Assembly: GCA_031316315.1 (NCBI GenBank)
Contig: JADBEO010000031.1
Location: 1 to 48,802, forward strand
Direction of reading: 5' to 3'
Length of the DNA: 48,802 nt
Origin: Chelatococcus sambhunathii
GTDB taxonomy: Bacteria > Pseudomonadota > Alphaproteobacteria > Rhizobiales > Methylopilaceae
This document shows, in pieces, positions 15,133 to 46,332 of the stretch (positions within the stretch are counted from its first letter, which is position 1; each line of letters starts with the position of its first letter). The notes beneath the pieces are model-generated. The model was not told where the DNA came from. It saw only the letters and a program-made list of their open reading frames with translations, and did no database searches. Both the position numbers and the translations under genes were made by a program.

Positions 15133-15139
15133 TCAGACC

Positions 15140-31198: not shown

Positions 31199-31390
31199 GT
31201 GCACGCATTCGAGATCGGCGCGACCGCGCAATTCCTGGGGAGCCCCGTGGGCGCCAAGTCGCAGCCTGCGGAGATCATCGCCCAGCTTCCGGCCGAGGAA
31301 GGCCAGCCCGGCTATCATGTCCGTTGCCTGGGCGACGGCCGCATCCGCCATGTCCGGGAATCCGAGCTGCAGAGCGCCGACGACGAATAG
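31199..31390 (+). CDS. Small hypothetical protein (63 aa)
   Basis: This short frame starts at GTG 31199 with AGGAG about 8 nt upstream and encodes 63 residues. The sequence (FEIGATAQFLGSPVGAKSQP, then GYHVRCLGDGRIRHVRESEL) has alternating hydrophobic residues and a turn-rich middle, consistent with a small beta-barrel of the SH3/KOW-like size. It has no signal peptide or membrane segment. Codon composition is GC-rich at third positions, as in neighbouring genes, and the ribosome site is good, so I regard it as real. I do not know its function. It is convergent with the ELM1-family gene, ending 9 bp before it. Confidence 0.65.
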   Translation: MHAFEIGATAQFLGSPVGAKSQPAEIIAQLPAEEGQPGYHVRCLGDGRIRHVRESELQSADDE

Positions 31391-31398
31391 CCGCCCCG

Positions 31399-32484
31399 TC
31401 AGCCTGCAGCGAAGAGCGATTTGACACGCGTGGCGACGACCTCGTCGCCGTCGAACGGCTGAGGCGGCTCAGTGTTGAGGGACCCGTCGAAGATGCGGCC
31501 CCACCGCCGGCCCTCGATCATCCGGTGCAGATTTGCGAGGTCCCGCCGCGGCGCCACCCAGCCGCCGACCATGATCCATCCGAGCAACGGCGACAGCATC
31601 CGCGAGGTGGCCATCGCAGCGATGGCGCTCCGGATGCGCAGCATCGGCGACAGCGGTCGCGCGACGAGCGGATAGATCGTCAGCGGCCTGCCGCTCGCCG
31701 CCGCCTCCGCCAGCATGGACTCGCTCTCGCCGGTGACGACGAGGAAGTCGGCGTTGGCGATGTAGGACAGGTAAGCGCCGCCCGGCGCGTTCGGGCGCCA
31801 TTCGAACAGCAGCGCCCCGGGGGCGCCGCGCTTCAGCGCCGTGACGCCTTCCGCCCCGGTCCTGCGGCTGGTGACGATGGCGAGCGAGGCGCCGGCGTCG
31901 GCCGCGGCGTGCGTTACCTCGGCCGCCATGCGCTCGGCGAAGTCCGGCCGGAAGCGATGTCGTCCTGTCTCGCCGCCGACGAGCATGACGCAGACCGGCT
32001 TGGGGAGTGTCGCGAAGGGGTTCTGCTCCTCGGCCCGGACGCGCGCGAGCGTCGGCCCGTCGACCTGCGTCGGCGGCAGGGTGACCTCGACGAGATTGGG
32101 CGTGGCCGCCTGCCGGAAATAGGCGCAGCGGATGACGAGGTCGGCCTCCTCCGCCGGCGTCCTGCGGCCGATCAGCACGATCCGCGTGGTCCCGCTGGTC
32201 GCCCGTCGGACGTATCGCGCCACCGGCACGGCGCGTCGACCCGCGGCGAGCACGAGGTCCGGCCAGGGCGGCGCGATCTCGGCTCGCGAATCGCCGTCGA
32301 GCGTGTCGAGCGTCGCGCCGAGAGCGGCGGGCGAGCCGTGCTGAAGCGCGTTGAAGGCGAGCTTTTTCTCGACGAAGGGCCAGCCGAGCGCGCGTGCGAC
32401 GCCAAGCGCCTGTGTCCGGTTGCCCGGGCGGTCGTCGGTGAGGACCCAGACGGAGGGCGGGGATGAAGGTTCGAAGCTCGCCAT
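31399..32484 (-). CDS. ELM1/DUF1022 family protein
   Basis: The 361-residue protein belongs to the bacterial ELM1-like family, named after a plant mitochondrial fission factor. It has an apparent GT-B-like fold. Typical blocks are VWVLTDDRPGNRTQALGVARALG at the N-terminus, PPWPDLVLAAGRRAVPVARYV, VMLVGGETGRHRF and the late FLVVTGESESMLAEA. It may be a glycosyltransferase or nucleotide-sugar-binding protein. No activity is established that I know of. The start at 32484 is chosen because the family motif begins about 12 residues later. The frame upstream encodes Arg-rich unrelated residues. It is divergent from the ABC exporter gene at the edge of the sphingolipid island, so a role in surface-lipid glycosylation is possible. 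Confidence 0.8.
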   Translation of the reverse strand: MASFEPSSPPSVWVLTDDRPGNRTQALGVARALGWPFVEKKLAFNALQHGSPAALGATLDTLDGDSRAEIAPPWPDLVLAAGRRAVPVARYVRRATSGTTRIVLIGRRTPAEEADLVIRCAYFRQAATPNLVEVTLPPTQVDGPTLARVRAEEQNPFATLPKPVCVMLVGGETGRHRFRPDFAERMAAEVTHAAADAGASLAIVTSRRTGAEGVTALKRGAPGALLFEWRPNAPGGAYLSYIANADFLVVTGESESMLAEAAASGRPLTIYPLVARPLSPMLRIRSAIAAMATSRMLSPLLGWIMVGGWVAPRRDLANLHRMIEGRRWGRIFDGSLNTEPPQPFDGDEVVATRVKSLFAAG

Positions 32485-32683
32485 GGTCTGCCCGACTAGC
32501 GCATCGCACATATACGACGAGGCGGCGCGGGGTTTTCGTCCGGCGACATGACGCCGCGCCGGTCGGCGCGGAAGCTCCGGAACCGCCGCCCGCTTGAGGC
32601 CGGCGTCGATTGCTCCTAGAAAGCGCCCGTCGCCGGGCGCGCCGCGTCGCCCGCGGACCATCGGAGCTCACGGCCCCTCATTC

Positions 32684-34477
32684 ATGTCCGAACCACGGAC
32701 CCAATCACTGGCCGCGTCCCGGCCGGCCGTCGACCGGACTCGTCGCACGTCGACGCTGCTGCGCATCGCGCGGGTGATCCCGCTGCGGCGCTCTGTCGTC
32801 ACGCTGCTGCTGCTGACGCTCGCCGGCGCCGCCGAAGGTCTCGGCGTGGCCAGCCTGCTGCCGCTCGTCGCCGCCATCGGCCCGGACGGGACGCAGCCGA
32901 CCAAGGGGACCAGCGGCAAGGTCGTCGAGGCGCTGCACTCGGTCGGCCTCGAGCCGACGCTCGGCCTGTTCGCGGCGATCCTGATCGTCGGCATGTCGGT
33001 CAAGGCGTTCCTGACGATCATCGCCATGAACCGGGTGGGTCGCGCCGGCGCCGATGTCGCGACCAAGATGCGGCTCGACCTGATCGACGCGCTGCTCGCG
33101 GCGCGCTGGTCCTATTACGTGCGCCAGCCCGTCGGGCGCTTTTCGGCGGCGCTTTCGGTCGAGGCGATGCAGGCCGGCGAGGCCTACAACGCCGCGGCCA
33201 AGTTCGCTGCCGAGATGATCCAGGTCGTCACCTATGTGACCGTCGTCGCCGTGTTCTCCTGGAAGCTCGCGCTGCTCTCGCTCGGCGCCGGCCTTGTGAT
33301 GGTGCTCACGCTCAACCGCTTCATGGCGATCGCCAAGAAGAACGCGCGCCTGCAGAAGAAGCGCGTCAGCTCGATGGTGGCGGGCCTCACCGACCTGCTG
33401 GTCGGCATCAAGCCGATGAAGGCGATGGGCCGCCACGCCCGATTTCAGGAGCTGTTCGAGCGCGACGCTGAGAAGATCCGCAAGGCCCAGCGCAAGCAGT
33501 CGCTCGCCCGCGACACCAACAAGGCGCTTCAGGAGCCGATCCTCGCCGCCTTCCTCGCCGCCGGCATGTATCTGACGATCGGCGTCTGGCAGATGCCGCC
33601 CGGCCAGGTGATCATCATGGCGCTGCTGCTCGCACGCACCGTCGCGACCATCGGCAAGGCCCAGCAGGCGCTTCAGAACGTCCGGATCCAGCAGGCGGGC
33701 TTCAACGCCATAGCAGACACGATCGACATCGCCCGGGCGATGAAGGAGCAGTCACATGGCGGACGGAAGCCGAAGTTCGAGCAGGCGATCGAGTTCCGTG
33801 ACGTGACCTTCGGCTTCGGCGACGCCGAGATCATCCGCGGCGCCTCCTTCGTCGCGCCGCAGGGCAAGGTCACGACCATCACCGGCGCCTCCGGCGCGGG
33901 CAAGACCACGACGGTCGACCTGCTGCTCGGCCTGCACGAGCCCTCCGGCGGCGAGATTCTGATCGACGGCGTGCCGCTTCGCGACATCGACCTCGTCGCC
34001 TGGCGCCAGATGACCGGCTACGTGCCGCAGGAACTGACCCTCTTCCACGACACGCTGAAGTCCAACGTCACGCTCGGCCACCCCGACTTCTCCGACGAGG
34101 ACGTCGCGCACGCCCTCCAGCAGGCCGGCGCCGCGGAGTTCGTCCACAGCCTGCCCGAGGGGATCGAGACCGTCGTCGGCGAGCGCGGCGCGCGGCTGTC
34201 GGGAGGCCAGCGCCAGCGCATCTCGATCGCCCGCGCGCTGCTGCACCGGCCGAAGATCCTGATCCTCGACGAGGCGACCACCGCCCTCGACCCGGCGACC
34301 GAGGCGAACATCGTCGCGAACGTCATCGACCTGACCCGGCGCGCCGGCCTCACCGTGCTCGCGATCTCGCATCAGCCGGCCTGGGCGGCGGCCTCCGACA
34401 CCGTCGTGCGGCTGCGCGACGGCAAGACCGAGACGGTTGACAGGCGGGCCTCGGAGTGGTCTCCCGCAGCCGAATAG
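32684..34477 (+). CDS. MsbA-like ABC exporter (fused membrane and ATPase domains)
   Basis: The 597-residue half-transporter has about six membrane helices in the first 330 residues and a C-terminal ATPase domain. Walker A is GASGAGKTT, the Q-loop is near GYVPQELTLF, the signature is LSGGQRQR, and Walker B is ILILDEATTALD with the switch His in AISHQ. It would work as a homodimer to export a lipid, lipid-linked glycan or peptide. It lies directly before repeat copy 2 and the fatty acyl-AMP ligase of the sphingolipid island. Flipping of a sphingolipid across the inner membrane is therefore a good candidate role, but this is contextual. The start at 32684 (MSEPRTQS) gives the normal length. Its ribosome site is weak. 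Confidence 0.88.
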   Translation: MSEPRTQSLAASRPAVDRTRRTSTLLRIARVIPLRRSVVTLLLLTLAGAAEGLGVASLLPLVAAIGPDGTQPTKGTSGKVVEALHSVGLEPTLGLFAAILIVGMSVKAFLTIIAMNRVGRAGADVATKMRLDLIDALLAARWSYYVRQPVGRFSAALSVEAMQAGEAYNAAAKFAAEMIQVVTYVTVVAVFSWKLALLSLGAGLVMVLTLNRFMAIAKKNARLQKKRVSSMVAGLTDLLVGIKPMKAMGRHARFQELFERDAEKIRKAQRKQSLARDTNKALQEPILAAFLAAGMYLTIGVWQMPPGQVIIMALLLARTVATIGKAQQALQNVRIQQAGFNAIADTIDIARAMKEQSHGGRKPKFEQAIEFRDVTFGFGDAEIIRGASFVAPQGKVTTITGASGAGKTTTVDLLLGLHEPSGGEILIDGVPLRDIDLVAWRQMTGYVPQELTLFHDTLKSNVTLGHPDFSDEDVAHALQQAGAAEFVHSLPEGIETVVGERGARLSGGQRQRISIARALLHRPKILILDEATTALDPATEANIVANVIDLTRRAGLTVLAISHQPAWAAASDTVVRLRDGKTETVDRRASEWSPAAE

Positions 34478-34506
34478 CGGGTTCTCGGTCCGCTTGCAGA
34501 AGCCGA

Positions 34507-34655
34507 CTGCGGGCGTCGAGACGCCTCGGCTGACGCCGAGGCTCCTCGGCATGAGGAAGGTCGGCGCCAGGATGTTCGGCGACGGCGGCGGAGCAACCCT
34601 TGACGCGCCTCATGCTGAGGAGCCTTGCGCAAGCAAGGCGTCGCGAAGCACGCAG
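34507..34655. repeat. Paired-hairpin repeat, family A (copy 2)
   Basis: Same plan as the element at 17297-17457. The left half has the arm CTGCGGGCGTCGAGACGC and the stem GCCTCGG-CTGACG-CCGAGGC. The right half has the stem CCTTGC-GCAA-GCAAGG and the arm GCGTCGCGAAGCACGCAG. The two arms have diverged from each other, but both variable stems still pair. The right arm ends 35 bp before the fatty acyl-AMP ligase start codon, so the hairpins lie in its leader. Confidence 0.9.
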
Positions 34656-34690
34656 TGGATCCCCGCCAGAAAGGCCAACAGAGGAAGGGC

Positions 34691-36412
34691 ATGACGACCG
34701 CAGACACGCTCAACCTCACTCGCGAGGACCCGACAGGCGAAGGCCCGGCCACCATCCTCGACGCGCTGGAGGCCGCCGCGCGCGCGCCGGAAGGCTTTAA
34801 CTTCCATTCAGGCCGGGGCGAGCTGATCGAGGCGCTGGGCTACGCCGCGCTCGTTGAGCAGTCGCGCGCGCTCGCCGCCAAGCTCATCGGCGCGGGCGTA
34901 AAACTTGGCGATCACGTCGCGCTGATCGCCGACACCGAGGGCGACTTCGTCCGGCTGTTCTTCGCCTGCGCCTATGCCGGCGTCGTCCCCGCGCCGATGC
35001 CGTTGCCCATGGCGTTCGGGGGCCGCGAAGGCTACGTCGCCCATGTCCGCCGGATGATCGAGGCGTCCGACGCCTCGGCCGCCTTCGCGCCGGCCATGAT
35101 GCGCGACTGGCTGAAGGAGGCGGCCGAGGGCCTGCCGCTGCGGCTCGTCGGGACCATTGCCGACCTCGCCGAGGTCCAGCCCTCGACCGCCCCGCTGCCG
35201 ACGCCCGATCCGGACGCGCTGGCCTATCTGCAGTTCTCGTCGGGGTCGACGCGCTTTCCGAAGGGGGTCTCGGTCACCCACCGCTCGCTGATGGCGAACG
35301 CGGCCGCGATCAGCCGTCATGGCCTCCAGACCCGGCCCGGCGACCGCTGCGTCTCCTGGCTGCCATTCTATCACGACATGGGACTGGTCGGTTTCATGCT
35401 GTCGCCGATCGTGGCGGGGCTGACGGGCGACTATCTCGCGACCCGCGACTTCGCCCGCCGCCCATTGCTGTGGCTGCAGATGATCGCCCGCGCGAAGGCC
35501 ACGATCTCCTACTCCCCGAGCTTCGGCTACGAGCTCGCCGCCCAGCGGGCCGCGACCGTCGATCTGGGAGACCTCGACGTCTCGTGCTGGCGCTGCGCGG
35601 GCATCGGCGGCGACATGATCCGCCCGCACGTCCTGCGAGCCTTCGCCGACCGCTTCCGGCCTCACGGCTTCGATCTCGACCGCTACGTCGCGAGCTACGG
35701 CATGGCGGAGGCGACGCTCGCGCTGTCCTTCGCGCCGCTCGGACCGGGATTGCGGACGGAGACCGTCGACCTCGACCGGCTGGAGAGCGACGGCGTCGCC
35801 GATGCTGCGAAGCCCGGCGCGTCCCGGACGCGCGAATTCGTGCTGTGCGGCCCCGCTTTGCCCGGCCACGAGCTTGCGGCGCGCGGCCCGGACGGTTCCG
35901 CGCTGCCGGCACGGCGGGTCGGCAAGATCTTCGCGCGCGGCCCAAGTCTGATGCGGGACTATTTCCGCGAGCCCGAGGCGACCGCCGAGACGCTCTCGCC
36001 GGACGGCTGGCTCGACACCGGCGACCTCGGCTACTTCACGCATGGCGAGCTGGTCATCACCGGCCGCGCCAAGGACCTGATCCTCGTCAACGGCCGCAAC
36101 GTCTGGCCGCAGGATCTCGAATGGGCGGTCGAAGCGGGCGTGCCGGGCGTGCGGTCCGGCGACGTCGCGGTGTTCTCGGTCGATCGCGACGAGGGCGAGG
36201 AGGTCGTCGCGCTGATCCAGTGCCGCACGCGCGAGCCGGCTGCGCGCGCCGCGCTGCAGGACCAGGCGGCGAAGCTGCTGCGGCTGCAGTTCGGCACACC
36301 CGTCGTGGTGCGCCTTGTCGGGGCGCACGCGCTGCCCGTCACGTCGTCGGGCAAGCTCAGCCGCAGCCGGGCCCGCGAGCTCTACCTGTCCTTGCCGGCC
36401 GAGGCCGCCTGA
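34691..36412 (+). CDS. Fatty acyl-AMP ligase / acyl-ACP synthetase of the sphingolipid pathway
   Basis: The 573-residue adenylating enzyme has the FAAL-type order of motifs: YLQFSSGSTRFPKGVSVTH (P-loop-like A3), WLPFYHDMGLVGFMLSP, YGMAEATLALSF (A5), and GWLDTGDLGYFTHGELVITGR (A7/A8), then the C-terminal Lys region LPVTSSGKLSRSRAREL. It should convert a fatty acid to acyl-AMP and transfer it to the phosphopantetheine of the carrier protein encoded at 36879. In Caulobacter the equivalent acyl-ACP synthetase feeds serine palmitoyltransferase. The start at 34691 has GAGGAAG 6 nt upstream. An in-frame Met at 34625 lies within the repeat and is unlikely. Confidence 0.88.
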   Translation: MTTADTLNLTREDPTGEGPATILDALEAAARAPEGFNFHSGRGELIEALGYAALVEQSRALAAKLIGAGVKLGDHVALIADTEGDFVRLFFACAYAGVVPAPMPLPMAFGGREGYVAHVRRMIEASDASAAFAPAMMRDWLKEAAEGLPLRLVGTIADLAEVQPSTAPLPTPDPDALAYLQFSSGSTRFPKGVSVTHRSLMANAAAISRHGLQTRPGDRCVSWLPFYHDMGLVGFMLSPIVAGLTGDYLATRDFARRPLLWLQMIARAKATISYSPSFGYELAAQRAATVDLGDLDVSCWRCAGIGGDMIRPHVLRAFADRFRPHGFDLDRYVASYGMAEATLALSFAPLGPGLRTETVDLDRLESDGVADAAKPGASRTREFVLCGPALPGHELAARGPDGSALPARRVGKIFARGPSLMRDYFREPEATAETLSPDGWLDTGDLGYFTHGELVITGRAKDLILVNGRNVWPQDLEWAVEAGVPGVRSGDVAVFSVDRDEGEEVVALIQCRTREPAARAALQDQAAKLLRLQFGTPVVVRLVGAHALPVTSSGKLSRSRARELYLSLPAEAA

Positions 36413-36878
36413 TCCGGCGGCGCCGTAACATTCGGCGCCGAATTATTTCAAAGCTGAAGCAATTTCGCGCGTACGGGGCCACCTCCGGGCGCGGCCGATG
36501 CGCGCCCCGCCCTGCAGGCGGAGGCGGCGGGCGTCCGGCCCGCCAGATCGCGGCGCCCGGGGCCGCGGGCGAAGAGCTTGAAATCGATAGATGATTTTTT
36601 GGGCGGCCCGGCCTGCGCCGCGCCGTTTCTCTCGCGACGACCGCGCCAAAGACCCGGGGAAACGTCTCTCGGGCATTTGCGCAACACCTGCTTAACAAAG
36701 CTTTTCCGGCGTCTACCGCGGCCGGCTCGACTCATGATTCAGTAAGGAGATCAACATGTAACATGCTGCATTGATTAGTGTTTCCGGAAGTCCCTGGCGA
36801 ACTTTACATAGCGACTGTCGCTACCTAGGTTCCGGTCGCTGAGAAAGGCTTGCACTGGCTTATCGCCAAGGCAATCAG
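36413..36878. promoter_or_regulatory. Leader and control region of the acp-spt operon, with mini-ORFs
   Basis: This 466-bp gap has a GC-rich first half with a possible hairpin near 36510 (CCCGCC-CTGCA-GGCGG) and then a T6 run at 36595. The second half, from about 36590, is AT-richer. It contains three tiny frames in a row: ATG-ATT-CAG-TAA at 36734, ATG-TAA at 36756, and ATG-CTG-CAT-TGA at 36763. The middle one has a near-perfect Shine-Dalgarno TAAGGAGAT (36743-36751). The true acp start at 36879 has only AAGG about 8 nt ahead. A leader that captures ribosomes is possible but untested. Confidence 0.4.
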
Positions 36879-37130
36879 ATGAGTGAAGATCAGACAGCGT
36901 TGTTGAACGAAGTTTCGGACGTTCTCGAAAGCGTCCTGAATAAGAAGGTCGAGCTGAAGCCCGAGATGAATATTGTGAATGACCTCGGCCTCGATTCCAT
37001 CGCCGTGATGAATTTCACGATGGCGCTGGAAGACAAGTTCGACATCTCGATCCCGCTGAATGACATGGCCAGCGTCGTGACGGTTCAGGATCTCCTGGAC
37101 ACGCTGCAGACGCTGCGGAGCGCTGCGTAA
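36879..37130 (+). CDS. Acyl carrier protein of the sphingolipid pathway
   Basis: The 83-residue acidic protein has the canonical carrier-protein site DLGLDSIAVMNF, with Ser40 as the phosphopantetheine attachment residue. It is followed by the usual helix-3 region (DKFDISIPLNDMASVVTVQD). Its stop overlaps the start of serine palmitoyltransferase by one base (TAATG). In Caulobacter the ACP beside serine palmitoyltransferase delivers the acyl chain to it, and the same is inferred here. It differs clearly from the carrier protein at 13655, which lacks the DSL/DSI motif. Confidence 0.92.
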   Translation: MSEDQTALLNEVSDVLESVLNKKVELKPEMNIVNDLGLDSIAVMNFTMALEDKFDISIPLNDMASVVTVQDLLDTLQTLRSAA

Positions 37131-38434
37131 TGTCCCTGCTTTCCAAGTTCCAGCCCCTCGCGGCTCGCTATGACGCCCTGCGCGCGAGCGGCGCCGACCC
37201 GTTTTCGGTCAAGTTCGACGACATCGTCTCGTCGGTCGAGGGCGTGCTGAAGGGCAAGCGAACCCTGCTGTTCGGCACCAACAACTATCTCGGCCTGACC
37301 TTCGATCCGCATTCGATGGAGCGGTCGATCGAGGCCATCCGCATGCACGGCACCGGCACGACCGGCTCGCGCATCGCGAACGGCTCCTATGACGGCCACG
37401 CCGAGCTCGAGCGCGCGATCGCGGACTTCTACGGCCGCAAGCACTGCATGGTGTTCTCGACCGGCTACCAGGCGAACCTCGCCATGATCTCGACGCTGGT
37501 CGGCAAGGACGACCACCTCGTGATCGACGCCGACAGCCACGCCTCGATCTACGACGCCTCGCGCCTCGGCCACGCGCCGGTCGTGCGCTTCCGTCACAAC
37601 AATCCGGACGACCTCGCCAAGCGCCTCGCGCGGCTGAAGGACCAGCCGGGCGACAAGCTGATCGTGGTCGAGGGCATCTACTCGATGCTCGGAGACACCG
37701 CGCCGCTGAAGGAGTTCGTCGACGTCAAGAAGGAGTTCGGCGCCTACCTGATGGTCGACGAGGCCCACTCCATGGGCGTGCTCGGCAAGCGCGGCCGCGG
37801 CCTTGCGGAGCGTGAGGGCGTCGAGGACGACGTCGACTTCGTGGTCGGCACCTTCTCAAAGAGCCTCGCCTCGGTCGGCGGCTACTGCGTCTCCTCGATG
37901 GAGGGCTTCGAGATCCTGCGGATCGCGGCTCGCCCCTACATGTTCACGGCCTCGCTGCCGCCGGCGATCATCGCCTCGACGACCGCCGCGCTCGAGACGC
38001 TGCGCGCCGAGCCGCAGCGCCGCGAGAAGCTGACGGCGAACTCCCGCCGCTTCTACAACGGCCTGAAGAGCGCCGGCTTCACCGTCGGTCCGGAAGCAAA
38101 CCCGATCGTCGCGGTGATCATCGACAAGGTCGACGTCGCGGCCGCCTTCTGGAAGCGGCTCGTGGACGAGGGCATGTACCTCAACCTCGCGCTGCCGCCC
38201 GCGACGCCGAGCCATCAGGCGTTCCTGCGCTCCAGCGTCAGCGCGGCGCACACCTTCGAGCACATCGACTTCGCGATCGAGCTGATGACCCGCGTCGGCC
38301 GCGAGTTCGGCCTGCTGCCGGAGAACGTGCATCCGTTCCCGCCGCGGATCGTCACCGCAGAACGCCTTTCCGCCAGAGCCGCCACAATGCCGGTCCGGCG
38401 GCCAGCAGCGGATGTCGGCGCTGGAATGGCGTGA
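37130..38434 (+). CDS. spt: Serine palmitoyltransferase (ACP-dependent type)
   Basis: The 434-residue PLP enzyme belongs to the alpha-oxoamine synthase family. It condenses L-serine with a fatty acyl thioester to give 3-ketosphinganine, releasing carbon dioxide. Visible are the glycine-rich HGTGTTGSRIANGSYDGH, the cofactor-stacking His137 (DADSHASIYD), the Asp/His pair in MVDEAHSMGVLG (Asp210, His213) and the Schiff-base Lys244 in GTFSKSLASVGGY. The KBL/ALAS branch is less likely because the gene lies beside a dedicated ACP and fatty acyl-AMP ligase. The C-terminal about 30 residues (ERLSARAATMPVRRPAADVG) look atypical and are encoded in the 83-bp overlap with the convergent gene. Confidence 0.92.
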   Translation: MSLLSKFQPLAARYDALRASGADPFSVKFDDIVSSVEGVLKGKRTLLFGTNNYLGLTFDPHSMERSIEAIRMHGTGTTGSRIANGSYDGHAELERAIADFYGRKHCMVFSTGYQANLAMISTLVGKDDHLVIDADSHASIYDASRLGHAPVVRFRHNNPDDLAKRLARLKDQPGDKLIVVEGIYSMLGDTAPLKEFVDVKKEFGAYLMVDEAHSMGVLGKRGRGLAEREGVEDDVDFVVGTFSKSLASVGGYCVSSMEGFEILRIAARPYMFTASLPPAIIASTTAALETLRAEPQRREKLTANSRRFYNGLKSAGFTVGPEANPIVAVIIDKVDVAAAFWKRLVDEGMYLNLALPPATPSHQAFLRSSVSAAHTFEHIDFAIELMTRVGREFGLLPENVHPFPPRIVTAERLSARAATMPVRRPAADVGAGMA

Positions 38435-39311
38435 CGATCTCCTTGTGGCCGGAGTGCCGCTCGATCTTCCAGGCGACGTAGTCCGCGCCGCCTGAGAAGG
38501 TGAAGGCGGCCTTGGCGAGCCGCGCGAGGTTCAAGGGCTTGGCGAGACGCGAGCGCGTCCGCCAGGCCCTTTTTGCATCCGCGCGCGCCTGATCGGAGAT
38601 ATGGGGCGCAAGGATCGGAGCGCCGCCCGAGTCCCCCTCTTGTTCGCCAAAGGCAATCCCCTCCGCGGCCCAGGCGAGCCGCAGCATGGCGTCGTAGCGC
38701 TCGGGGGCGGCGTCGATGATCGAACCGGGCCGGTTCACGCCTTCGACGCGCAGCTCCGAGGCGTAGGTGCGCGAGAACAGCGCCTGCCAGAAGTCGGCGG
38801 CGCGGCCCCGCTCCGGACCGAGATGCGCGGCCCACCAGGCGGCCGCCCGGCACGCGCCGGCGACGGCCTCTGCGACCTGCGCCCCCGCGAACAGGTCGCG
38901 GCGCCACGCCAATCCAGCCGGCTGCGCGAAGCGCGCCCAGATGGTCGTGTCGAGGCTCTTCGCCCGCGCATGGTCGACGAACTGGGCGAGCGTCATGACC
39001 GCGAGCTTGGCCCGCAGCGTCATGCCGGCGGCCGTGGTCTCGGCGTATTCCACGTTCGGCGGAAGGCGGCGGTTGCCGGCGCGCTGGAACGGCGTCTGAT
39101 CCCAGGCCTCAAGCTCGTCGAGCAGGATGTAGAAGTCGAGCAGCCCGTCGGTCGCGCCGGTCCGGAGCGCCGAGCCGTAGAACAGCACGCCGACGACGCC
39201 GCGCCCGCCGCGCGCCGCGAGCTCGGCGGCGAAGGCGGTCACCGCCGGGGCGATCGGCCGGTCGAGCTCGCCGGCGACGAAGCGGATCAGGGACGCGGCG
39301 GCTTCGGTCAT
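38352..39311 (-). CDS. Tam41-like CTP:phospholipid cytidylyltransferase
   Basis: The 319-residue protein aligns by eye with mitochondrial Tam41 (CDP-diacylglycerol synthase) from end to end. The nucleotidyltransferase motif is GVLFYGSALRTG with the metal-binding acidic residue in DGLLDFYILLDELEAWD (YGS 45-47, Asp59). NVEYAET precedes AGMTLRAKLAVMTLAQF, and the C-terminal SRLAKPLNLARLAKAAFTFS matches Tam41 SRISKSSALQTIKGVFT. Tam41 makes CDP-DAG from phosphatidate and CTP. Beside a ceramide-type lipid kinase and a CDP-alcohol phosphotransferase, the likely substrate is ceramide-1-phosphate, giving CDP-ceramide. The start at 39311 avoids the repeat upstream. Its 3' end overlaps spt by 83 bp, tail to tail. 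Confidence 0.78.
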   Translation of the reverse strand: MTEAAASLIRFVAGELDRPIAPAVTAFAAELAARGGRGVVGVLFYGSALRTGATDGLLDFYILLDELEAWDQTPFQRAGNRRLPPNVEYAETTAAGMTLRAKLAVMTLAQFVDHARAKSLDTTIWARFAQPAGLAWRRDLFAGAQVAEAVAGACRAAAWWAAHLGPERGRAADFWQALFSRTYASELRVEGVNRPGSIIDAAPERYDAMLRLAWAAEGIAFGEQEGDSGGAPILAPHISDQARADAKRAWRTRSRLAKPLNLARLAKAAFTFSGGADYVAWKIERHSGHKEIVTPFQRRHPLLAAGPALWRLWRKGVLR

Positions 39312-39336
39312 CGGTCGACGGGGTTGGAGGAGCGTG

Positions 39337-39458: not shown

Positions 39459-39475
39459 TCAGCCTCTGCAAGGCC

Positions 39476-40402
39476 CTAGAGCCGCACGAAGGTGAATTCG
39501 GGACCCGACGTCAGCTCGACCCGGCCGTCGGCGCCGGGCGCGAACGTATCGCCGTCGAAGATGAAGGGTTCACGAAGCGTGAGCGACACCCGATCCGCCT
39601 TGGCGCTCCGATAGCCATACGCCGCCGCCCAGGCCGGCGGGCGGCCGAGGCCGGCGGTGGCGAGGGTGCGGATGAGCCGGCGCGGCGGCGCGGCGATCTC
39701 GGTGACGTCGAAGCCGCGCTCGCCCTTCCCCCAGAACGGCCAGAGACCGAGCATCAGGCGCCTCAGCGACGTCGCGAGCAGCGCGAAGGAGTGGCGCATC
39801 TGCGGCTCCTCGCCGTCGATCGAGATCGCGAGCGGGACTCCGCTGCGCCATACCTCGCGGTCCTTGCCGAGCGCCGCCGCGCCGGACATGACGACGCCCA
39901 TCGCGACGCCCATCTTCTGCGCGAAGCCGCGGGAATGGATGCGCTCGTTGACAAGCCGCGTCGCCCGCTCGAAAGCGCCGAGACCGAAGACGAAGCCGAG
40001 CATGCGCGCCTCGCCGACCTCGACCTGGATCGGCCGCCTGACCTGCCGCTTCAGCGCGGCCCCCGCCCGCGCGGCCTCGGCGAGCGCCGGCAGCTGATCG
40101 CGCGCGACTCCGCCGACGTCTGCGGCCGCCACATTGGTCTTGCCGCTCGCGAGCAGCGCGATTTCGGGAAGCGCGCCGCCATAGGCCCAGGGCAGCACGC
40201 TCATCACGTCGCGCAGCGTGCCGTCGCCGCCGTCGACGGCGACCAGCGTCACCCCCTCCTCGGCGAAGCGGCGCAGCAGCGCGGGATAGCCGTCCGGCCC
40301 GTCCGCCGCGCCGTAGAGCGCATCCCCGAGGTCAGGCTTGTCATGCGCGGCGTCGCGGTTTTTCCAGCTCCGCGCGTTGGCGACGACCCCAAGTCTGCCC
40401 AT
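39476..40402 (-). CDS. Diacylglycerol/ceramide-kinase-like lipid kinase
   Basis: The 308-residue protein has the DAGK catalytic fold with the nucleotide-binding motif VAVDGGDGTLRDVMS (GGDGT at residues 58-62). LLASGKTNVAAADVGG follows, in place of the usual PGTxN, with the second-domain region ISIDGEEPQMRHSF after it. Family members phosphorylate diacylglycerol, sphingosine or ceramide. In Caulobacter the DAGK-like CpgB of the sphingolipid cluster is a ceramide kinase, which is the best model here. The predicted product, ceramide-1-phosphate, would feed the neighbouring cytidylyltransferase. Its ATG shares one base with the stop of the CDP-alcohol phosphotransferase gene (TGATG), so the two are coupled. 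Confidence 0.85.
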   Translation of the reverse strand: MGRLGVVANARSWKNRDAAHDKPDLGDALYGAADGPDGYPALLRRFAEEGVTLVAVDGGDGTLRDVMSVLPWAYGGALPEIALLASGKTNVAAADVGGVARDQLPALAEAARAGAALKRQVRRPIQVEVGEARMLGFVFGLGAFERATRLVNERIHSRGFAQKMGVAMGVVMSGAAALGKDREVWRSGVPLAISIDGEEPQMRHSFALLATSLRRLMLGLWPFWGKGERGFDVTEIAAPPRRLIRTLATAGLGRPPAWAAAYGYRSAKADRVSLTLREPFIFDGDTFAPGADGRVELTSGPEFTFVRL

Positions 40403-41535
40403 CACGCGTCGAGCCAGGAGACCAGCGGAGCGCGCCGGTTCTCGACCGTGCCCTGCAGCACCTGCGCGCCATGGACGACGAGCGACAGCACGATCCAGAC
40501 GCACACCGCCGCCATGCCGAGGTCCGGACGACCGAGCAGCGTGAACAGCGTCAGGATCACGAGGTTCGGATTGCGCCGCGCGGTGATCAGCCGGAAGAAC
40601 GAATCGAACGGCCGCCAGACATGCATGTGGAAGCCCCACAGGCGGATGAAGGCGCCCTCGAACAGCCGCTGCACGATGTAGCCGATCAGGATCACGGCGA
40701 TCATCAGCCCGGCGTAGTCGACCGGGTAGCCGGCCTTCGGCAGGCCGTAAATCCAGGCGATCCACCAGAACGGCGGGTGGATGAGGTCGATGCCGTGATC
40801 GAGGATGTCGCCGAACTTCGAGGACGTCATGGTGACGCGCGCGAGCTTGCCGTCGACCGTGTCGAGGAAGGTCATGATCCAGGCCGGGATCAGGCCCAGC
40901 AGGAAATTGCCGTTCCAGAACAGGAACAGCGCGACGAACATCAGGACCAGGCCGAGATAGGTCACCTGGTTCGGCGTGATCGCGCGCTCGGCGCACCACT
41001 TGGTCACGGCGCGCGCGGGCCTCGGCCACCAGAACTTCGTCACGAAGTCCGTGACGCCCTTGTAGGAACCGGCGAAGCTGCGCTGCTCGACGTCCGCGAC
41101 CGAGGCCTCGGAGAGCGGAATCAGGAACGCGATCTCGCGCTTGCGCAGCTTCCGGTCGTAGGAGCCGGCGAGCCCTTCGGGGTCAAGCTCCTCCGTCCCG
41201 GCCGGGATCTCGCCATTTGCAATCGCGCCCGCAACCTCTTGCGCCCGCGCTCCGGCGACGCTCGCGGCCACCGCCTCGGCGCCGGAGACGAGACAGGCGC
41301 CCGGCCGTTCGAGCAGGGCGGCGATCAGCCGCTGGTCGTAGGCCCAGTCGAGGCGAAGGATGAGCGCATCGGCCTGCTGTTCGAGGCCCTCGGCGCTCGC
41401 CCGCACGTCGCTCACCCCGGCGCGCTGGAGCTGCCGCCTCAGCCGTTCCGCGGAACTCATGCCCCAGATCCTCACAGTCGAGGCCCCGACGAGCACGGCG
41501 ACGCGAGGGCGGGGCGATATCTGCGGGTCGGTCAT
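40402..41535 (-). CDS. CDP-alcohol phosphotransferase with N-terminal nucleotidyltransferase-like region
   Basis: The 377-residue protein has a C-terminal membrane domain (from about residue 180, about six helices) with the complete CDP-OH-P signature DxxDGxxAR(x8)GxxxDxxxD at Asp225, Asp228, Asp246 and Asp250. It transfers a phospho-group from a CDP-linked substrate to an alcohol. The first 180 residues (RVAVLVGASTVRIWGMSSAE) resemble a worn nucleotidyltransferase domain, as in two-domain inositol-phosphate cytidylyltransferase/phosphotransferase enzymes, but the signature GxGxR is missing. With the kinase and Tam41-like genes it probably forms a phosphosphingolipid headgroup. The alcohol is unknown. 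Confidence 0.85.
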   Translation of the reverse strand: MTDPQISPRPRVAVLVGASTVRIWGMSSAERLRRQLQRAGVSDVRASAEGLEQQADALILRLDWAYDQRLIAALLERPGACLVSGAEAVAASVAGARAQEVAGAIANGEIPAGTEELDPEGLAGSYDRKLRKREIAFLIPLSEASVADVEQRSFAGSYKGVTDFVTKFWWPRPARAVTKWCAERAITPNQVTYLGLVLMFVALFLFWNGNFLLGLIPAWIMTFLDTVDGKLARVTMTSSKFGDILDHGIDLIHPPFWWIAWIYGLPKAGYPVDYAGLMIAVILIGYIVQRLFEGAFIRLWGFHMHVWRPFDSFFRLITARRNPNLVILTLFTLLGRPDLGMAAVCVWIVLSLVVHGAQVLQGTVENRRAPLVSWLDA

Positions 41536-41690
41536 TCCAGTTGCGTTTCCCTCGTGGCCGGTCCAATCCGGCGTGTCGTTTAGCGACGAATTCCCGACGG
41601 CGCCACCGCAGCGTCCTCGAATGCGCCGTAACAGCGTATAGAAGCTCAGCGCACGCCGTCCGCGCCGAGGCAGAGATTGACGACGCCGAT

Positions 41691-42128
41691 ATGACGAACG
41701 CGACGCTCGAGAAGTTCGGATTTCCGCGAACGGCGGTCGCTGAAATCGGCCGGTGGACCGTGCTCGTGCGGCCGAAGCAGCCGACGCTCGGATCGCTCGT
41801 CCTCGTCTGCCGCGACGAGGCGAAGGCGTTTTCTGAAGTGAGCTCTGAGGCCTTCGTCGACCTCGGTCGCGCGGTGTCGAAAATCGAGCGCGTCCTCAAG
41901 GCGCATGTCGCCTATGAGCGCATCAACTACCTGATGCTGATGATGGTCGACCCGGACGTGCACTTCCATGTCATCCCCCGCTATGAGGGGACGCGCGAGC
42001 GCGCCGGCGCCGTATACGAGGATAAGGGCTGGCCCGGTCCGCCCAACCTGGCTTCGGGGATCGACCTCGAAGGCGAAGCGCTCGACGCGCTGGTCGCCGA
42101 GCTCAAGTCGCGATGGGCCGAGGCCTGA
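41691..42128 (+). CDS. HIT-like nucleotide-binding protein
   Basis: The 145-residue protein belongs to the histidine-triad superfamily. The motif near the C-terminal half reads MVDPDVHFHVIPRY. This keeps the two downstream histidines (His91, the usual catalytic position, and His93) but has Asp in place of the first His of HxHxH. HIT proteins hydrolyse or transfer nucleoside monophosphates. Here, next to CTP-using lipid enzymes, a CDP-lipid or dinucleotide substrate is conceivable. The start at 41691 fits the family. The frame is open upstream to 41541 with no similarity. The gene ends in a TGATG junction with the lptF-like gene, so it is the first gene of the rightward lptFG-GNAT-nucleotidyltransferase operon. 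Confidence 0.8.
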   Translation: MTNATLEKFGFPRTAVAEIGRWTVLVRPKQPTLGSLVLVCRDEAKAFSEVSSEAFVDLGRAVSKIERVLKAHVAYERINYLMLMMVDPDVHFHVIPRYEGTRERAGAVYEDKGWPGPPNLASGIDLEGEALDALVAELKSRWAEA

Positions 42129-43333
42129 TGCCGAAACTCCGCATTCTCGACCGATACATCCTCGGCCTGACGCTCAAGCCGATGATGCTCTCGCTCAGCA
42201 TCGTGCTGCTCGCGCTGCTGCTCGAGCGCATCCTGCGGCTGATCGACATCCTCGCGACCGCAGGCGCCCCGATCTTCGTCGCCTTCGCGCTCGCCGGCAA
42301 TCTGGTCCCGCATTATCTCGGCTTCGCGCTGCCGGCGGGCTTCGCGCTCGGCGTCTACAGCGCGATCTCCAAGATGAGCCTCGGCGCAGAGCTCGAGGCC
42401 GGCCTCGCCTCGGGCGTTTCGGTCCGGACCATGACGCGGCCGCTGATCCTCCTCGGCTGCGCCCTGAGCCTCCTCAGCATTATCGTGGTCGGCTTCGCCT
42501 CGCCCTATTGCCGCTACGTCTACCGCGAGATCATCAACCAGAGCACGGCCTACGCCTGGCGGGCGCACGCCCCGGCGGCGACCTTCATCAGCGTCAAGGA
42601 CGGGCTGACCGTGACAGCGGACGAGGTCGACAAGACCGGCCGCGGGTTGAAGGGCGTCTTCATCCAGAACCGCAAGGACGACCAGGACGTCGTTACCTCC
42701 GCCGCCACCGGCCGGCTGGAGCTGACCGAGGACCAGAGCGCGATCCAGCTCAAGCTGTTCAACGGCGCCGTCGTGCGGGACATCGGCGCGGCCGAGCCCT
42801 CGACGCTGCGCTTCAAGGAGTTCGTGCTCGACAAGAAGTTCGACCTCGAGGCGCCGCCGTTCCGGCCGCGCGGCGGCAGCGAGCGCGAGCTCACCATGTT
42901 CGAGCTCTGGAGCGAGATGCACGCGCCGGTGCCCTCGCAGTATTACCGAGAGCTCTCCGCCGAATTCCACGGGCGCCTCGCGCGCTCGCTGTCGCTCGCC
43001 TTCCTGCCGCTGCTGATCGTACCGCTGTCGATGACGATGCGGCGGAATGCGCGCATCGCGAACATGGTCGCGGCCGGCGTCGCGATGGTCGTCTATCACA
43101 ACGCCCTCCAGATCGGAGAGACGATCGCCCACAAAGGAACCGCGCCGGCGATCCTGACCTGCTGGGCGCCCTTCGTGATCTTCCTCGCTTTGTCGATCTG
43201 GCTGTTCCGGACGAGCACCGACCGCCCGGGGGACACACTCGTGTCGCGGGCGATCGACGGCGTGCGCGACGCGGTCCTGCGCGCGGTGCGCAAGCGGCCG
43301 GCCGCCGAGCCCCAGGTCGCGGCGGGAGGCTGA
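42128..43333 (+). CDS. lptF: LptF-like permease of the sphingolipid island
   Basis: The 401-residue protein has the YjgP/YjgQ (LptF/LptG) layout: a first helix with LDRYILGLTLKPMMLSLSIV, three N-terminal helices, a central periplasmic beta-jellyroll (about residues 130-260) and three C-terminal helices (LAFLPLLIVPLSM, MVAAGVAMVVYHN, WAPFVIFLALSIWLF). Such proteins receive lipid A-type lipids from the inner membrane with an LptB ATPase. The usual position of alphaproteobacterial lptFG is beside lptD/surA. Here the pair lies inside a sphingolipid cluster, so it is likely a dedicated paralogue for sphingolipid transport. I chose ATG 42128 because it forms TGATG with the HIT gene and has GAGG 4-5 nt upstream. 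ATG 42113 is an alternative. Confidence 0.85.
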   Translation: MPKLRILDRYILGLTLKPMMLSLSIVLLALLLERILRLIDILATAGAPIFVAFALAGNLVPHYLGFALPAGFALGVYSAISKMSLGAELEAGLASGVSVRTMTRPLILLGCALSLLSIIVVGFASPYCRYVYREIINQSTAYAWRAHAPAATFISVKDGLTVTADEVDKTGRGLKGVFIQNRKDDQDVVTSAATGRLELTEDQSAIQLKLFNGAVVRDIGAAEPSTLRFKEFVLDKKFDLEAPPFRPRGGSERELTMFELWSEMHAPVPSQYYRELSAEFHGRLARSLSLAFLPLLIVPLSMTMRRNARIANMVAAGVAMVVYHNALQIGETIAHKGTAPAILTCWAPFVIFLALSIWLFRTSTDRPGDTLVSRAIDGVRDAVLRAVRKRPAAEPQVAAGG

Positions 43334-43334
43334 G

Positions 43335-44474
43335 ATGCGGCTTGCACGCTACATGAGCGTCACGCTGGTCAAGCTCGCGCTCGTCGCGACGCTGATCCTC
43401 GCCTTCATCGCGGAGGTGCTGGATCTCGTCGACAACGCCGGCGACATCATCGACGCCGGCGAAGGCGTCGGCGGCATCCTGCGTTACGCAGGGCTTCGCA
43501 TGCCGATCCTGCTGGTCCACGCCATGCCGCTCGGCGCCCTTGTCGGCGCGCTGCTGACCCTCGCTTTGCTCGCGCGCAACAGCGAGATCTCGGCGATGCG
43601 CTCGGCCGGACGCGGCATGTTCAACCTGTTCATGGCGATGCTGCCGGGCGCCTTCGTCCTTGTGGTGCTGCATTCGACGCTGATCGACGTCGTCGCGCCG
43701 CGCGCCCAGGCCAAGCTCGCGATCCAGATCACGCAGCGGGTGGAGGCCAAGCAGGCCAAGCAGGACGGCGTCCGCGACCTTAAGACCACGCGCCTCAGGG
43801 TCGGCGAGGACATCGTCACCTTCGACCGGGTGAGCGACAAGGGCCGGCGGCTGAAGAACGTGCGCATCTACGACCGCGGGGCCGACAAGATCGTCACCGC
43901 CCGCACCGTCGCCCAGGAAGCGCGCTGGCGCGATGATAAATGGACGCTGACGGGCGCCGAGAAGGTGTCCTGGGCGAAAGAGACGATGAACCAGAAGACG
44001 ACCGCGGACGGCGTCTGGGACACGACGATGACGCCCGACGACGTGCTCGGGGCGTTGAGCCCGGAGAGCCGCATCTCGCTGGATTCGGCGCGCAAGGTGC
44101 TCGCCGGCGAGCAGACGCCCAACGCGCCGCTGCCGTTCTACCAGACGCTCGTCGAGCGCGTTTACGCCATGCCGCTCGGGCTGATCGTGATGGTGCTGCT
44201 GGCGATGCCGGCCGCGCTCGTGAACTGGCGCGACGTCCGCTCCTCCCGCCACATGGCCTTCGCCCTCGTCGCCGGCCTCGGCTTCCTGCTGACGGACGGC
44301 GTCCTGACGACCCTCGGACTGACCGGCGTCGTTCCGCCGATGTTCGGCGCCTGGGCCGGCGTCGTGGCGTTCGCGGTCATCGGAATATTGCGGGTCATGC
44401 AGATCGACGCGGGCTGGTCCACGCGCAGGGTCGAGCGGCGCGCGCGGAAACGACTTGCGGAGGCCGGCGCGTGA
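43335..44474 (+). CDS. lptG: LptG-like permease of the sphingolipid island
   Basis: The 379-residue protein is the second YjgP/YjgQ permease. The start MRLARYMSVTLVKLALVATL and the helices LVHAMPLGALVGALLTLALL and NLFMAMLPGAFVLVVL are typical. A periplasmic domain spans about residues 120-270, and C-terminal helices include RVYAMPLGLIVMVLLAMPAA. It begins one base after the lptF-like stop codon and overlaps the GNAT gene by GTGA. LptF and LptG form a heterodimer. No lptB, lptC or lptA is in the window, so any dedicated ATPase or bridge would be shared or elsewhere. Confidence 0.85.
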   Translation: MRLARYMSVTLVKLALVATLILAFIAEVLDLVDNAGDIIDAGEGVGGILRYAGLRMPILLVHAMPLGALVGALLTLALLARNSEISAMRSAGRGMFNLFMAMLPGAFVLVVLHSTLIDVVAPRAQAKLAIQITQRVEAKQAKQDGVRDLKTTRLRVGEDIVTFDRVSDKGRRLKNVRIYDRGADKIVTARTVAQEARWRDDKWTLTGAEKVSWAKETMNQKTTADGVWDTTMTPDDVLGALSPESRISLDSARKVLAGEQTPNAPLPFYQTLVERVYAMPLGLIVMVLLAMPAALVNWRDVRSSRHMAFALVAGLGFLLTDGVLTTLGLTGVVPPMFGAWAGVVAFAVIGILRVMQIDAGWSTRRVERRARKRLAEAGA

Positions 44475-45589
44475 GCGGCATCGAGATCAGGCCCGTACAG
44501 TCCTCGCGCGAACTCGACGAATTCATCGACCTTCCGAAGACGCTGCACGCGAACGATCCGGCCTTCGTCGCGCCGCTTCGGCTCGAGCGCCGCCAGGCGC
44601 TTTCGGCCAAGCACAATCCGCTGTTGAGGAAGATCGAAGCCCGGTTCTGGACGGCGCGCCGGGGCGGCAAGGCGGTCGGGCGCATCAGCGCGCAGGCCGA
44701 TCCACGGCAGGGCGAGGCCGGGCTGTTCGGCTTCGTGGCGGCGCAGGACGACCCCCAGATCTTCCACGCGCTGTTCCGCACCGCCGAGCGCTGGCTCGCG
44801 AGCCGCGGCAAGACCGAGGCGCAAGGGCCCTTCCACCTCAACATCAACGAGGAGACGGGCGTCCTGGTCGACGGCTTCTCGACGCCGCCGATGCTGCTGA
44901 TGCCGCACGACCTGCCTTACGTCGCCGGCCGCATCGAGGCGGAAGGCTACGTCAAGGCGATGGACATGTTCGCCTATCTGCACGACACGCAGGTGCCGTT
45001 CCCGAAGTCGATCGACCGCCTGCTCGCGCGGCCCAAGCCGCCGAACGTCGTCATCCGTCACATGGACTGGTCGCGCTACGACGACGAAATCCGGACCGTC
45101 GTCGACATTTTCAACGACGCCTGGTCGGAGAACTGGGGCTTCATGCCGTTCGGCGAGGACGACCTCGCCCATATGGCGAAGTCCATGAAGCTGCTGCTCG
45201 ACGAGAAATTGCTGTGGTTCGTCGAGGTGGACGGCAAGCCCGCCGCCTTCGGCCTGTCGCTGCCGAACCTCAACGAGATGATCCGAGACCTCGACGGCGA
45301 GCTCTTCCCGTTCGGCTGGGCCAAGCTCCTGCTGCGGCTGAAGCGGCGCTCCTACACCTCCGGACGCATCCCGCTGATGGGCGTGCGCAAGGAGCATCAC
45401 AAGAGCTACCTCGGCCAGCTCCTGCCGCTCTACATCTTCGAGAAGTTCCGCGAGGAGGGGCGCGCCCGCAACGTCCGCCACGTCGAGATGTCGTGGGTGC
45501 TCGAGACCAACAAGCCGATGCGCCATTTCGGGGAGGCGCTCGGCTCGGCCTACAAGACCTACAGGGTCTATTCCAAGAAGATCGCCTGA
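44471..45589 (+). CDS. GNAT-fold acyltransferase resembling bacterial ceramide synthase
   Basis: The 372-residue soluble protein has the GNAT-type architecture of the bacterial ceramide synthase family: IEIRPVQSSRELDEFIDLPK, then PAFVAPLRLERRQALSAKHN and GRISAQAD. GPFHLNINEETGVLVDGF and WGFMPFGEDDLAHMA follow, with the C-terminal HVEMSWVLETNKPMRHFGEALG. In Caulobacter a protein of this type N-acylates 3-ketosphinganine to oxidised ceramide and is unrelated to eukaryotic ceramide synthases. The gene starts with GTG 44471, overlapping the lptG-like stop. Its place in the same island as spt, acp and the acyl-AMP ligase strongly supports ceramide formation. An uncharacterised YghO-type acetyltransferase is the alternative. 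Confidence 0.82.
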   Translation: MSGIEIRPVQSSRELDEFIDLPKTLHANDPAFVAPLRLERRQALSAKHNPLLRKIEARFWTARRGGKAVGRISAQADPRQGEAGLFGFVAAQDDPQIFHALFRTAERWLASRGKTEAQGPFHLNINEETGVLVDGFSTPPMLLMPHDLPYVAGRIEAEGYVKAMDMFAYLHDTQVPFPKSIDRLLARPKPPNVVIRHMDWSRYDDEIRTVVDIFNDAWSENWGFMPFGEDDLAHMAKSMKLLLDEKLLWFVEVDGKPAAFGLSLPNLNEMIRDLDGELFPFGWAKLLLRLKRRSYTSGRIPLMGVRKEHHKSYLGQLLPLYIFEKFREEGRARNVRHVEMSWVLETNKPMRHFGEALGSAYKTYRVYSKKIA

Positions 45590-46332
45590 TGACTTCCGCC
45601 CTCATTCTGGCCGGCGTCCGCAAGGGCGGCGACAGGCTCGCCGAATTCGCGGGCGTCGAGCACAAGGCGCTGATCCCGATCGGCGGGCGACCCATGATCG
45701 AGCGGGTGATCGCCGCGCTACGCGCCAGCGGCCGGATCGACCGCATCCTGGTCTCGGTCAACCGCCCGAAAGCGCTAAAAGATCTCGACGTCGAGGTCAT
45801 CAAGGCCGCGGACACACTGAGCCAGAGCGTCGTCGAGGGCGTCACCGCGCTCGGGACGCCCGCGCTGGTTACCACGGCCGACCATGCGCTGCTCGAGCCC
45901 GAATGGGTGCGCTACTTCCTCGACAACCTGCCGGATGCGCAGATCGCAGCCGGGATCGCGCGCTCCGAAGTGGTGATGGGAGAGACGCCGGACACCAAGC
46001 GCACCTTCCTGAAGCTCGCCGACGGCTCCTTCTCCGGCTGCAATCTGTTTTTCCTGCGCGACATGGACGCGCTGAGGGGCGTCGCGCTCTGGCGCGAATT
46101 CGAGGCGCTGAGGAAGCGACCGCTCAAAATGCTGCAGAAGCTCGGGCCCCGCGCGATCCTCGCGGCCGCGACCGGCCGCCTGACGACGGATCGCGTCGCC
46201 GCGGAGGTCCAGCGCCTGTCGGGGCTGACAGCCGGCAAGGTCGAGATGCCCTTCGGCCGCGCGGCGATCGACGTCGACAAGCCGGAAGACCTGATCCTGG
46301 TGCGCAGGCTGGTGGGTGACGAGGCGGCTTAA
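45589..46332 (+). CDS. MobA-like nucleotidyltransferase (NTP transferase)
   Basis: The 247-residue protein has a GT-A type nucleotidyltransferase fold. The N-terminal motif is LILAGVRKGGDRLAEFAGVE, the substrate-binding part is HKALIPIGGRPMIERVIAAL, and the metal-binding Asp is in LVTTADHALLEP. The GxGxR loop is GVRKGGDR, slightly altered. Such proteins attach CMP, GMP or a similar group to a phosphorylated compound. In this operon it may activate the sphingolipid headgroup, as CDP- or GDP-alcohol, for the phosphotransferase at 40402. Molybdenum cofactor synthesis is less likely because no mo genes are near. It starts in a TGATG overlap with the GNAT gene and is the last gene of that operon. 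Confidence 0.8.
   Translation: MTSALILAGVRKGGDRLAEFAGVEHKALIPIGGRPMIERVIAALRASGRIDRILVSVNRPKALKDLDVEVIKAADTLSQSVVEGVTALGTPALVTTADHALLEPEWVRYFLDNLPDAQIAAGIARSEVVMGETPDTKRTFLKLADGSFSGCNLFFLRDMDALRGVALWREFEALRKRPLKMLQKLGPRAILAAATGRLTTDRVAAEVQRLSGLTAGKVEMPFGRAAIDVDKPEDLILVRRLVGDEAA

Follow-up and report, generated by a model that had tools for sequence, protein, structure and literature searches.

A ceramide phosphoglycerate cluster in a Methylopila-like alphaproteobacterium, with a Tam41-fold protein as putative source of CDP-ceramide

In Caulobacter, the anionic sphingolipids ceramide phosphoglycerate (CPG) and ceramide diphosphoglycerate (CPG2) require a set of clustered genes (CC_1168-CC_1152; cpgA-D, spt, cerS, lptF2G2) that was established by mutants (PMC11324152), and CPG2 helps this bacterium to survive without lipopolysaccharide. 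Among the headgroup proteins, purified CpgB acts as a ceramide kinase (PMC10331486), CpgD makes cytidine diphosphate (CDP)-glycerate (PMC12275187, PMC13228409) and CpgA (CC_1159) is needed for CPG2, not for CPG (PMC11324152); CC_1160 alone restored CPG in a mutant of CC_1159 and CC_1160. The CpgC step is still given "an unidentified mechanism" in a preprint of May 2026 (PMC13228409). Here, we analysed a contig of 48,802 nucleotides from Chelatococcus sambhunathii (JADBEO010000031.1; the window hereafter), of which positions 31199 to 46332 carry a group of genes presented in a preliminary description as an island for sphingolipid synthesis, activation and export with a CDP-ceramide route.

This CPG2 locus is of a known kind, not a new one, and is a near gene-for-gene match to the Caulobacter cluster. 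AasR, AcpR, Spt, CpgC, CpgB, CpgA, a HIT-domain protein, LptF2, LptG2, CerS and a CC_1153-type protein occur in the order and orientation found in Caulobacter segnis, and these eleven proteins common to the window and the C. segnis locus (L124) share 33-61% identity. The gene types of L124 follow in turn the order given for CC_1165-CC_1152 of C. crescentus in PMC11324152. The window holds aasR, acpR, spt and cerS as well as cpgA, cpgB and cpgC; the locus is the CPG2 cluster, two further members of which are encoded on other contigs, and CerR was not found. Among named relatives, the closest is an uncultured Methylopila contig, in which the gene order is identical and CpgC has 91% identity. We have next to no doubt that the window carries a CPG/CPG2 cluster from a Methylopila-like alphaproteobacterium. 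The genes listed in the preliminary description are present as open frames, with Pfam and NCBIfam matches (Table 1), and its view of a sphingolipid synthesis and export island is supported. No paper combining Methylopila and sphingolipid was found in the literature searched.

The predicted fold of CpgC is that of Tam41, a mitochondrial enzyme that attaches CDP to a lipid. In profile searches, PF09139 (Tam41) found nothing in the genome of the window at E <= 10 and, in 299 genomes of the phylum, two with weak matches and none over the cut-off. In a diverse CpgC alignment of 29 sequences, the window protein among them, two matched it at E <= 1 (best 9.8e-07), and in a closer alignment of 63 sequences none did so at E <= 0.01; window CpgC had no NCBIfam match at E <= 0.01 either. 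A fold search took the place of a profile-profile comparison, for which no clear bacterial Tam41 was obtained. The AlphaFold2 model of CpgC, built from 63 sequences, had a predicted local distance difference test (pLDDT) of 94.6 and a predicted template modelling score of 0.92. When it was compared with the PDB by Foldseek, ranks 1 to 5 were all Tam41 chains (6ig4, 6ig2, 7ecd; E from 1.4e-8 to 1.3e-7), and the next matches, starting at 8.4e-4, were other nucleotidyltransferases, mostly aminoglycoside enzymes. Six residues (G46, S47, D59, Y61, Y89 and K102) are invariant in 63 out of 63 sequences. CpgC keeps one acid, D59; a tyrosine, Y61, takes the position of the other member of the usual acid pair, and the third acid site was not located. 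This pattern fits Tam41, which retains just one of the three nucleotidyltransferase acids according to a structural study (PMC11646218). Because of the fold match and the conserved single-acid site, we regard CpgC as almost certainly a distant homologue of Tam41.

CpgC is also linked to sphingolipid synthesis. From 289 alphaproteobacterial genomes, that of the window included, CpgC was called in 34 (E <= 0.001). Spt scores form two groups in this sample: 40 genomes score at least 401 bits, and the remaining 249 no more than 264 bits. All of the 34 CpgC-positive genomes have a strong Spt and none of the 249 others has CpgC (Fisher test 1.8e-38, relatedness uncorrected). CpgB reaches at least 143 bits in 34 out of 34 CpgC-positive genomes and does not exceed 40 bits in any of the 6 genomes with Spt and no CpgC. 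The co-occurrence with sphingolipid genes, a check named in the preliminary description, is thereby borne out; CpgA is missing from 14 of the 34. The same description had taken the gene related to diacylglycerol (DAG) kinases as a ceramide kinase, and it is indeed the counterpart of Caulobacter CpgB, which was shown to be such a kinase (PMC10331486). Since two CdsA-type genes (PF01148) are present in the genome of the window, glycerolipid activation is presumably independent of CpgC.

CpgA belongs with CpgD. Among the 34 CpgC-positive genomes, CpgA scores at least 278 bits in 20 and at most 22 bits in the other 14, and CpgD at least 190 bits in 20 and at most 43 bits in the other 14. These are the same genomes, 20 with both proteins and 14 with neither, and it is because of these identical distributions that we group CpgA with CpgD, in line with the proposal of the papers on CDP-glycerate, and not with CpgC. 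On a CpgC tree of 33 proteins (one genome with both CpgA and CpgD, G163, was left out, its cpgC being split between contigs), the pair must have changed between present and absent at least 7 times (bootstrap range 6-9), and well-supported branches force 5 of these changes; one family (f96) contains one genome with both and another with neither. The CpgD of the genome itself lies outside the window (G000:C56:120462-121199; 276 bits) and is 55% identical to the C. segnis gene, which was assigned as cpgD by position and Pfam, not by published sequence.

CDP-alcohol phosphotransferases carry the motif DxxDGxxAR(x8)GxxxDxxxD, all eight positions of which are present in CpgA, and the residues in question (D225, D228, G229, A232, R233, G242, D246 and D250) are invariant in 25 sequences. 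The class assignment in the preliminary description was confirmed by a profile search with PF01066. The predicted fold (pLDDT 88.1) matches AF2299, phosphatidylinositol phosphate (PIP) synthases and the bifunctional IPCT-DIPPS (4mnd), with E values from 7.8e-11 to 3.1e-8; weaker matches (E 0.1-0.3) are CTP:inositol-1-phosphate cytidylyltransferases (CTP, cytidine triphosphate). We are confident, at a grade below that given to the identity of the cluster, that CpgA is the user of CDP-glycerate that turns CPG into CPG2, and most likely not the consumer of CDP-ceramide.

Taken together, the pathway that we propose would proceed as follows. AasR, AcpR, Spt and CerS would build ceramide, and CpgB would convert it to ceramide-1-phosphate, as was shown for the Caulobacter enzyme. 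CpgC, with CTP, would then most likely form CDP-ceramide, and a further transferase would hand the ceramide phosphate on to glycerate or phosphoglycerate, giving CPG. CpgD, encoded on another contig, would make CDP-glycerate (the reaction shown in Caulobacter), from which CpgA would transfer phosphoglycerate to CPG, giving CPG2; the identical gene distribution of CpgA and CpgD is independent support for this last step. LptF2 and LptG2, with the ABC protein, would export the lipid. For this pathway as a whole, the balance tips slightly in favour. CDP-ceramide as the predicted product of CpgC, through a CTP reaction suggested by the modelled fold, is likewise a narrowly favoured assignment.

The idea is not entirely new. 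The Conclusions of PMC11324152 (2024) state that an InterPro domain of CC_1161 suggests a CDP-DAG synthase and that the protein might form a nucleoside diphosphate (NDP)-activated ceramide, so that the central idea of the preliminary description was already in print as a suggestion. The term "CDP-ceramide" was not found in the literature searched. No paper joining CpgC and Tam41 was present among the matches listed.

Several observations speak against this interpretation. Window CpgC has no match to PF09139, a check named in the preliminary description, or to another Pfam family (E <= 0.01, E <= 1), the label "Tam41-like" in that description being upheld by the predicted fold, and the Foldseek TM-scores between CpgC and Tam41 are moderate (0.49-0.59; root-mean-square deviation 6.4-7.9). 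The sample of the class includes 3 further genomes from this order, all of them without CpgC. The presence of CpgA and CpgD was set by chosen bit-score cut-offs, though the gaps in the scores are wide. A pair test that used one label for CpgA and CpgD, their patterns being identical, yields 5 independent pairs when restricted to supported branches and 7 when every branch is used, and 5 pairs cannot go below p 0.0625. The distribution of the CC_1153-type nucleoside triphosphate (NTP) transferase follows CpgC, not CpgA and CpgD, and fits poorly with its reported role, Caulobacter mutants having placed CC_1153 at the CPG2 step: it occurs in 33 of the 34 CpgC-positive genomes (E <= 1e-6; one copy cut at a contig end), the exception being G071 (82% complete), and in none of the 6 genomes with Spt and no CpgC. 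No assay of CpgC was found in the literature examined. Finally, no CDP-ceramide transferase was found: in 33 loci (L031-L063, several incomplete at contig ends) searched with the CpgA profile, the only phosphotransferases within about 10 kb of cpgC are of the CpgA type, and Caulobacter can form CPG in the absence of CpgA. We know of no transferase for CDP-ceramide.

One candidate for the missing CPG-forming transferase, a PF04464-like gene, was rejected as a core component, being present in 7 of the 40 Spt-positive genomes and not in that of the window. It encodes a conserved protein near sphingolipid genes of Caulobacter, Acetobacteraceae, Sphingomonas and Nevskia-type bacteria (L124:17288-18544, L112:14470-15606, L076:8781-10082 and L134:5118-6371), whose likeness to CDP-glycerol glycerophosphotransferase (PF04464) is weak (E 0.005-0.053, in 3 of the 4 members).

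Three other explanations have to be weighed. In the first, CpgC has the Tam41 fold and catalyses another reaction, for example the attachment of glycerate directly onto ceramide-1-phosphate or an activation of glycerate in place of ceramide, and CDP-ceramide never exists. Direct attachment is an older proposal cited in PMC11324152, the 2026 preprint quoted above (PMC13228409) leaves the mechanism unnamed, and a CDP-ceramide transferase is neither known to us nor found here. However, PMC11324152 terms direct attachment energetically not very favorable, and the solved structures closest to the model belong to CDP-DAG synthases, which use CTP and act on another lipid phosphate, phosphatidic acid. 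This explanation is a serious one, and we consider it distinctly less probable than the formation of CDP-ceramide.

The second is the linear route of the preliminary description, in which the kinase, CpgC and CpgA act in series and CpgA moves ceramide phosphate from CDP-ceramide to an alcohol. The three genes are adjacent and co-oriented, the phosphotransferase motif of CpgA is intact, and PIP synthases, enzymes that use CDP-DAG, are among its structural relatives. Nevertheless, 14 of the 34 genomes with CpgC and CpgB do without CpgA, exactly those that do without CpgD, and Caulobacter makes CPG without CpgA (PMC11324152). A Kennedy-like route ending in CpgA is thus contradicted, CpgA as the third step had to be given up, and we consider the linear series very unlikely. 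The third, an ordinary Tam41-type CDP-DAG synthase acting on phosphatidic acid, could invoke the Tam41 fold and the two PF09139 matches in the diverse alignment, and is the least probable of all, since CpgC was not found without a strong Spt among the 289 genomes, two CdsA-type genes are at hand and the loss of CpgC blocks CPG in Caulobacter (PMC11324152).

We return to the formation of CDP-ceramide by CpgC, for which the odds of being the best mechanism are about even. The confident Tam41 fold gives the CpgC step a concrete, testable chemistry. The distribution in two modules supports CpgA as the user of CDP-glycerate, and leads to the prediction that a CPG-type lipid can be made without CPG2 by some bacteria, among them the Acetobacteraceae of this sample. 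In a wider picture, for and against which we see equal weight, CpgC would found a sphingolipid branch of the Tam41 superfamily and CDP-ceramide would be an undescribed activated lipid and the core intermediate of proteobacterial phosphosphingolipids; CPG would be made in the manner of phosphatidylglycerol, and CpgA with CpgD would form an optional second module, gained or lost as a unit.

Table 1. Genes of the CPG/CPG2 cluster and its flank in the window
Feature	Position	Strand	Assignment and matches	Identity to C. segnis
ELM1-like protein	31399..32484 (refined start)	-	PF06258 6e-50; beside the cluster, tie to the cluster unproven	
ABC exporter	32684..34477	+	Transmembrane domain and ATPase; PF00664 and PF00005 (longer frame)	
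AasR	34691..36412 (refined start)	+	Fatty acyl-AMP/acyl-ACP (acyl carrier protein) ligase; PF00501; NCBIfam PRK09192 813 bits	57%
AcpR	36879..37130	+	Specialised acyl carrier protein; PF00550 1.8e-12	42%
Spt	37130..38434	+	Serine palmitoyltransferase; NF047599 673 bits, over cut-off	61%
CpgC	38352..39311	-	CC_1161 counterpart; Tam41 fold; predicted ceramide-1-phosphate cytidylyltransferase	50%
CpgB	39476..40402 (refined start)	-	CC_1160 counterpart; ceramide kinase; PF00781 (DAGK_cat) 6e-06 on longer frame 39476-41029	35%
CpgA	40402..41535	-	CC_1159 counterpart; cytidylyltransferase-like N-domain and CDP-alcohol phosphotransferase; PF01066 2.7e-10	
HIT-domain protein	41691..42128	+	CC_1157 counterpart; PF01230 1.1e-4 (longer frame)	56%
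LptF2-like permease	42113..43333	+	PF03739 4.5e-61	
LptG2-like permease	43335..44474	+	PF03739 2.6e-58	
CerS/bCerS	44471..45589 (GTG start)	+	CC_1154 counterpart; GNAT-type ceramide synthase; PF00583 1.4e-4	47% (same-place protein)
MobA/CofC-like NTP transferase	45589..46332 (ATG start)	+	CC_1153 type; PF12804 8.5e-16; CofC model TIGR03552 25 bits, below cut-off	43% (gene adjoining CerS)

From left to right, the ELM1-like gene, the ABC exporter, aasR, acpR and spt are followed by cpgC, cpgB and cpgA on the opposite strand, then by HIT, lptF2, lptG2, cerS and the MobA/CofC-like gene. CpgB and CpgA, HIT and LptF, LptG and CerS, and CerS and the NTP transferase overlap by 1 to 16 bases, the start of cpgB lying on the stop of cpgA. 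The convergent genes spt and cpgC share 83 nt at their 3' ends; the two also overlap in the nearest relative (L064) and do not in C. segnis. Of the 9 nearest named loci (L064-L072, L072 being incomplete), 7 also have frames of the ELM1 type beside the cluster.

CerR was not found at ortholog level in the genome of the window, where the best match (76 bits, 32%) is in the range of second, generic epimerase matches, and a different ketoreductase is implied; 29 of the 34 CpgC-positive genomes have a CerR match of at least 147 bits. In the Methylopila/Hansschlegelia-type loci (L064-L071), CerR is not between AasR and AcpR (gap 36412-36879 in the window), and no CerR or CerS could be recognised in the part of the Acetobacteraceae loci examined. 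The CC_1158-type phosphoesterase of the genome (282 bits, on another contig) was rejected as a core partner: a match of at least 266 bits occurs in 21 of the 34 CpgC-positive genomes and in 2 of the 6 genomes with Spt and no CpgC, so that it is not tied to CpgC. The MobA-like gene of the window was likewise rejected as CpgD: it is of the CC_1153 type, and the LicC-like gene L124:1091-1849, with its counterpart on contig C56, was taken as CpgD. The genome contains a second CC_1153-type NTP transferase (G000:C38:7874-8650; 183 bits).

The distribution of the HIT gene, called probably unrelated in PMC11324152, follows that of CpgA. In a set of 80 named loci (70 with both CpgC and LptF, 10 dropped), it is present in 30 of the 31 loci with CpgA and in none of the 39 without; in the 33 loci L031-L063 (26 with CpgC and LptF, 7 dropped), the corresponding values are 8 of 12 and 0 of 14. 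These counts are not independent, since they include many close relatives and the two sets have some loci in common (at least two shared contigs, L031/L105 and L034/L115), so the sets were counted separately. This distribution suggests that HIT belongs to the CDP-glycerate module, perhaps acting on CDP-glycerate or related nucleotides.

Other genes were observed around these clusters. A second, divergent CpgA-like phosphotransferase (CpgA2) lies 3' of LptG in L043, L045, L055, L056, L061, L100 and L119. A gene of the fatty acid hydroxylase type (PF04116 in L124) accompanies the cluster in 19 of the 33 loci L031-L063 and in many Acetobacteraceae loci; it was not recognised in the nearest named loci (L064-L072), and none is among the window cluster genes listed. 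Elsewhere in the window (13567-16078), near polysaccharide genes, an acyl-CoA-dehydrogenase-like gene is followed by a gene for a protein with a class II tRNA-synthetase core, a pair that we take to recall amino acid:carrier protein ligases.

In comparison with the known systems, the locus differs from the Caulobacter cluster by a few genes. The C. segnis locus includes CerR, a phosphoesterase and the LicC-like gene taken as cpgD, whereas in the genome of the window no CerR lies between AasR and AcpR, and the phosphoesterase (CC_1158 type) and cpgD are on contigs C35 and C56, respectively. An ABC exporter stands in the window at the place that is occupied in C. segnis by a Wzx-like flippase (L124:15198-16529; PF01943 E 0.0041, a weak match below cut-off). 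CpgA has its two-domain fold and catalytic motif in common with AF2299, PIP synthases and IPCT-DIPPS, but its N-domain is cytidylyltransferase-like and presumably inactive, and the cytidylyltransferase that partners it is a protein of its own, CpgD. CpgC, for its part, resembles the CDP-DAG synthase Tam41/TAMM41 in predicted fold over most of the protein and in the single nucleotidyltransferase acid kept, while it differs in being below Pfam detection, with 11-14% identity in structural alignments, in its link to Spt and in its predicted substrate, ceramide-1-phosphate.

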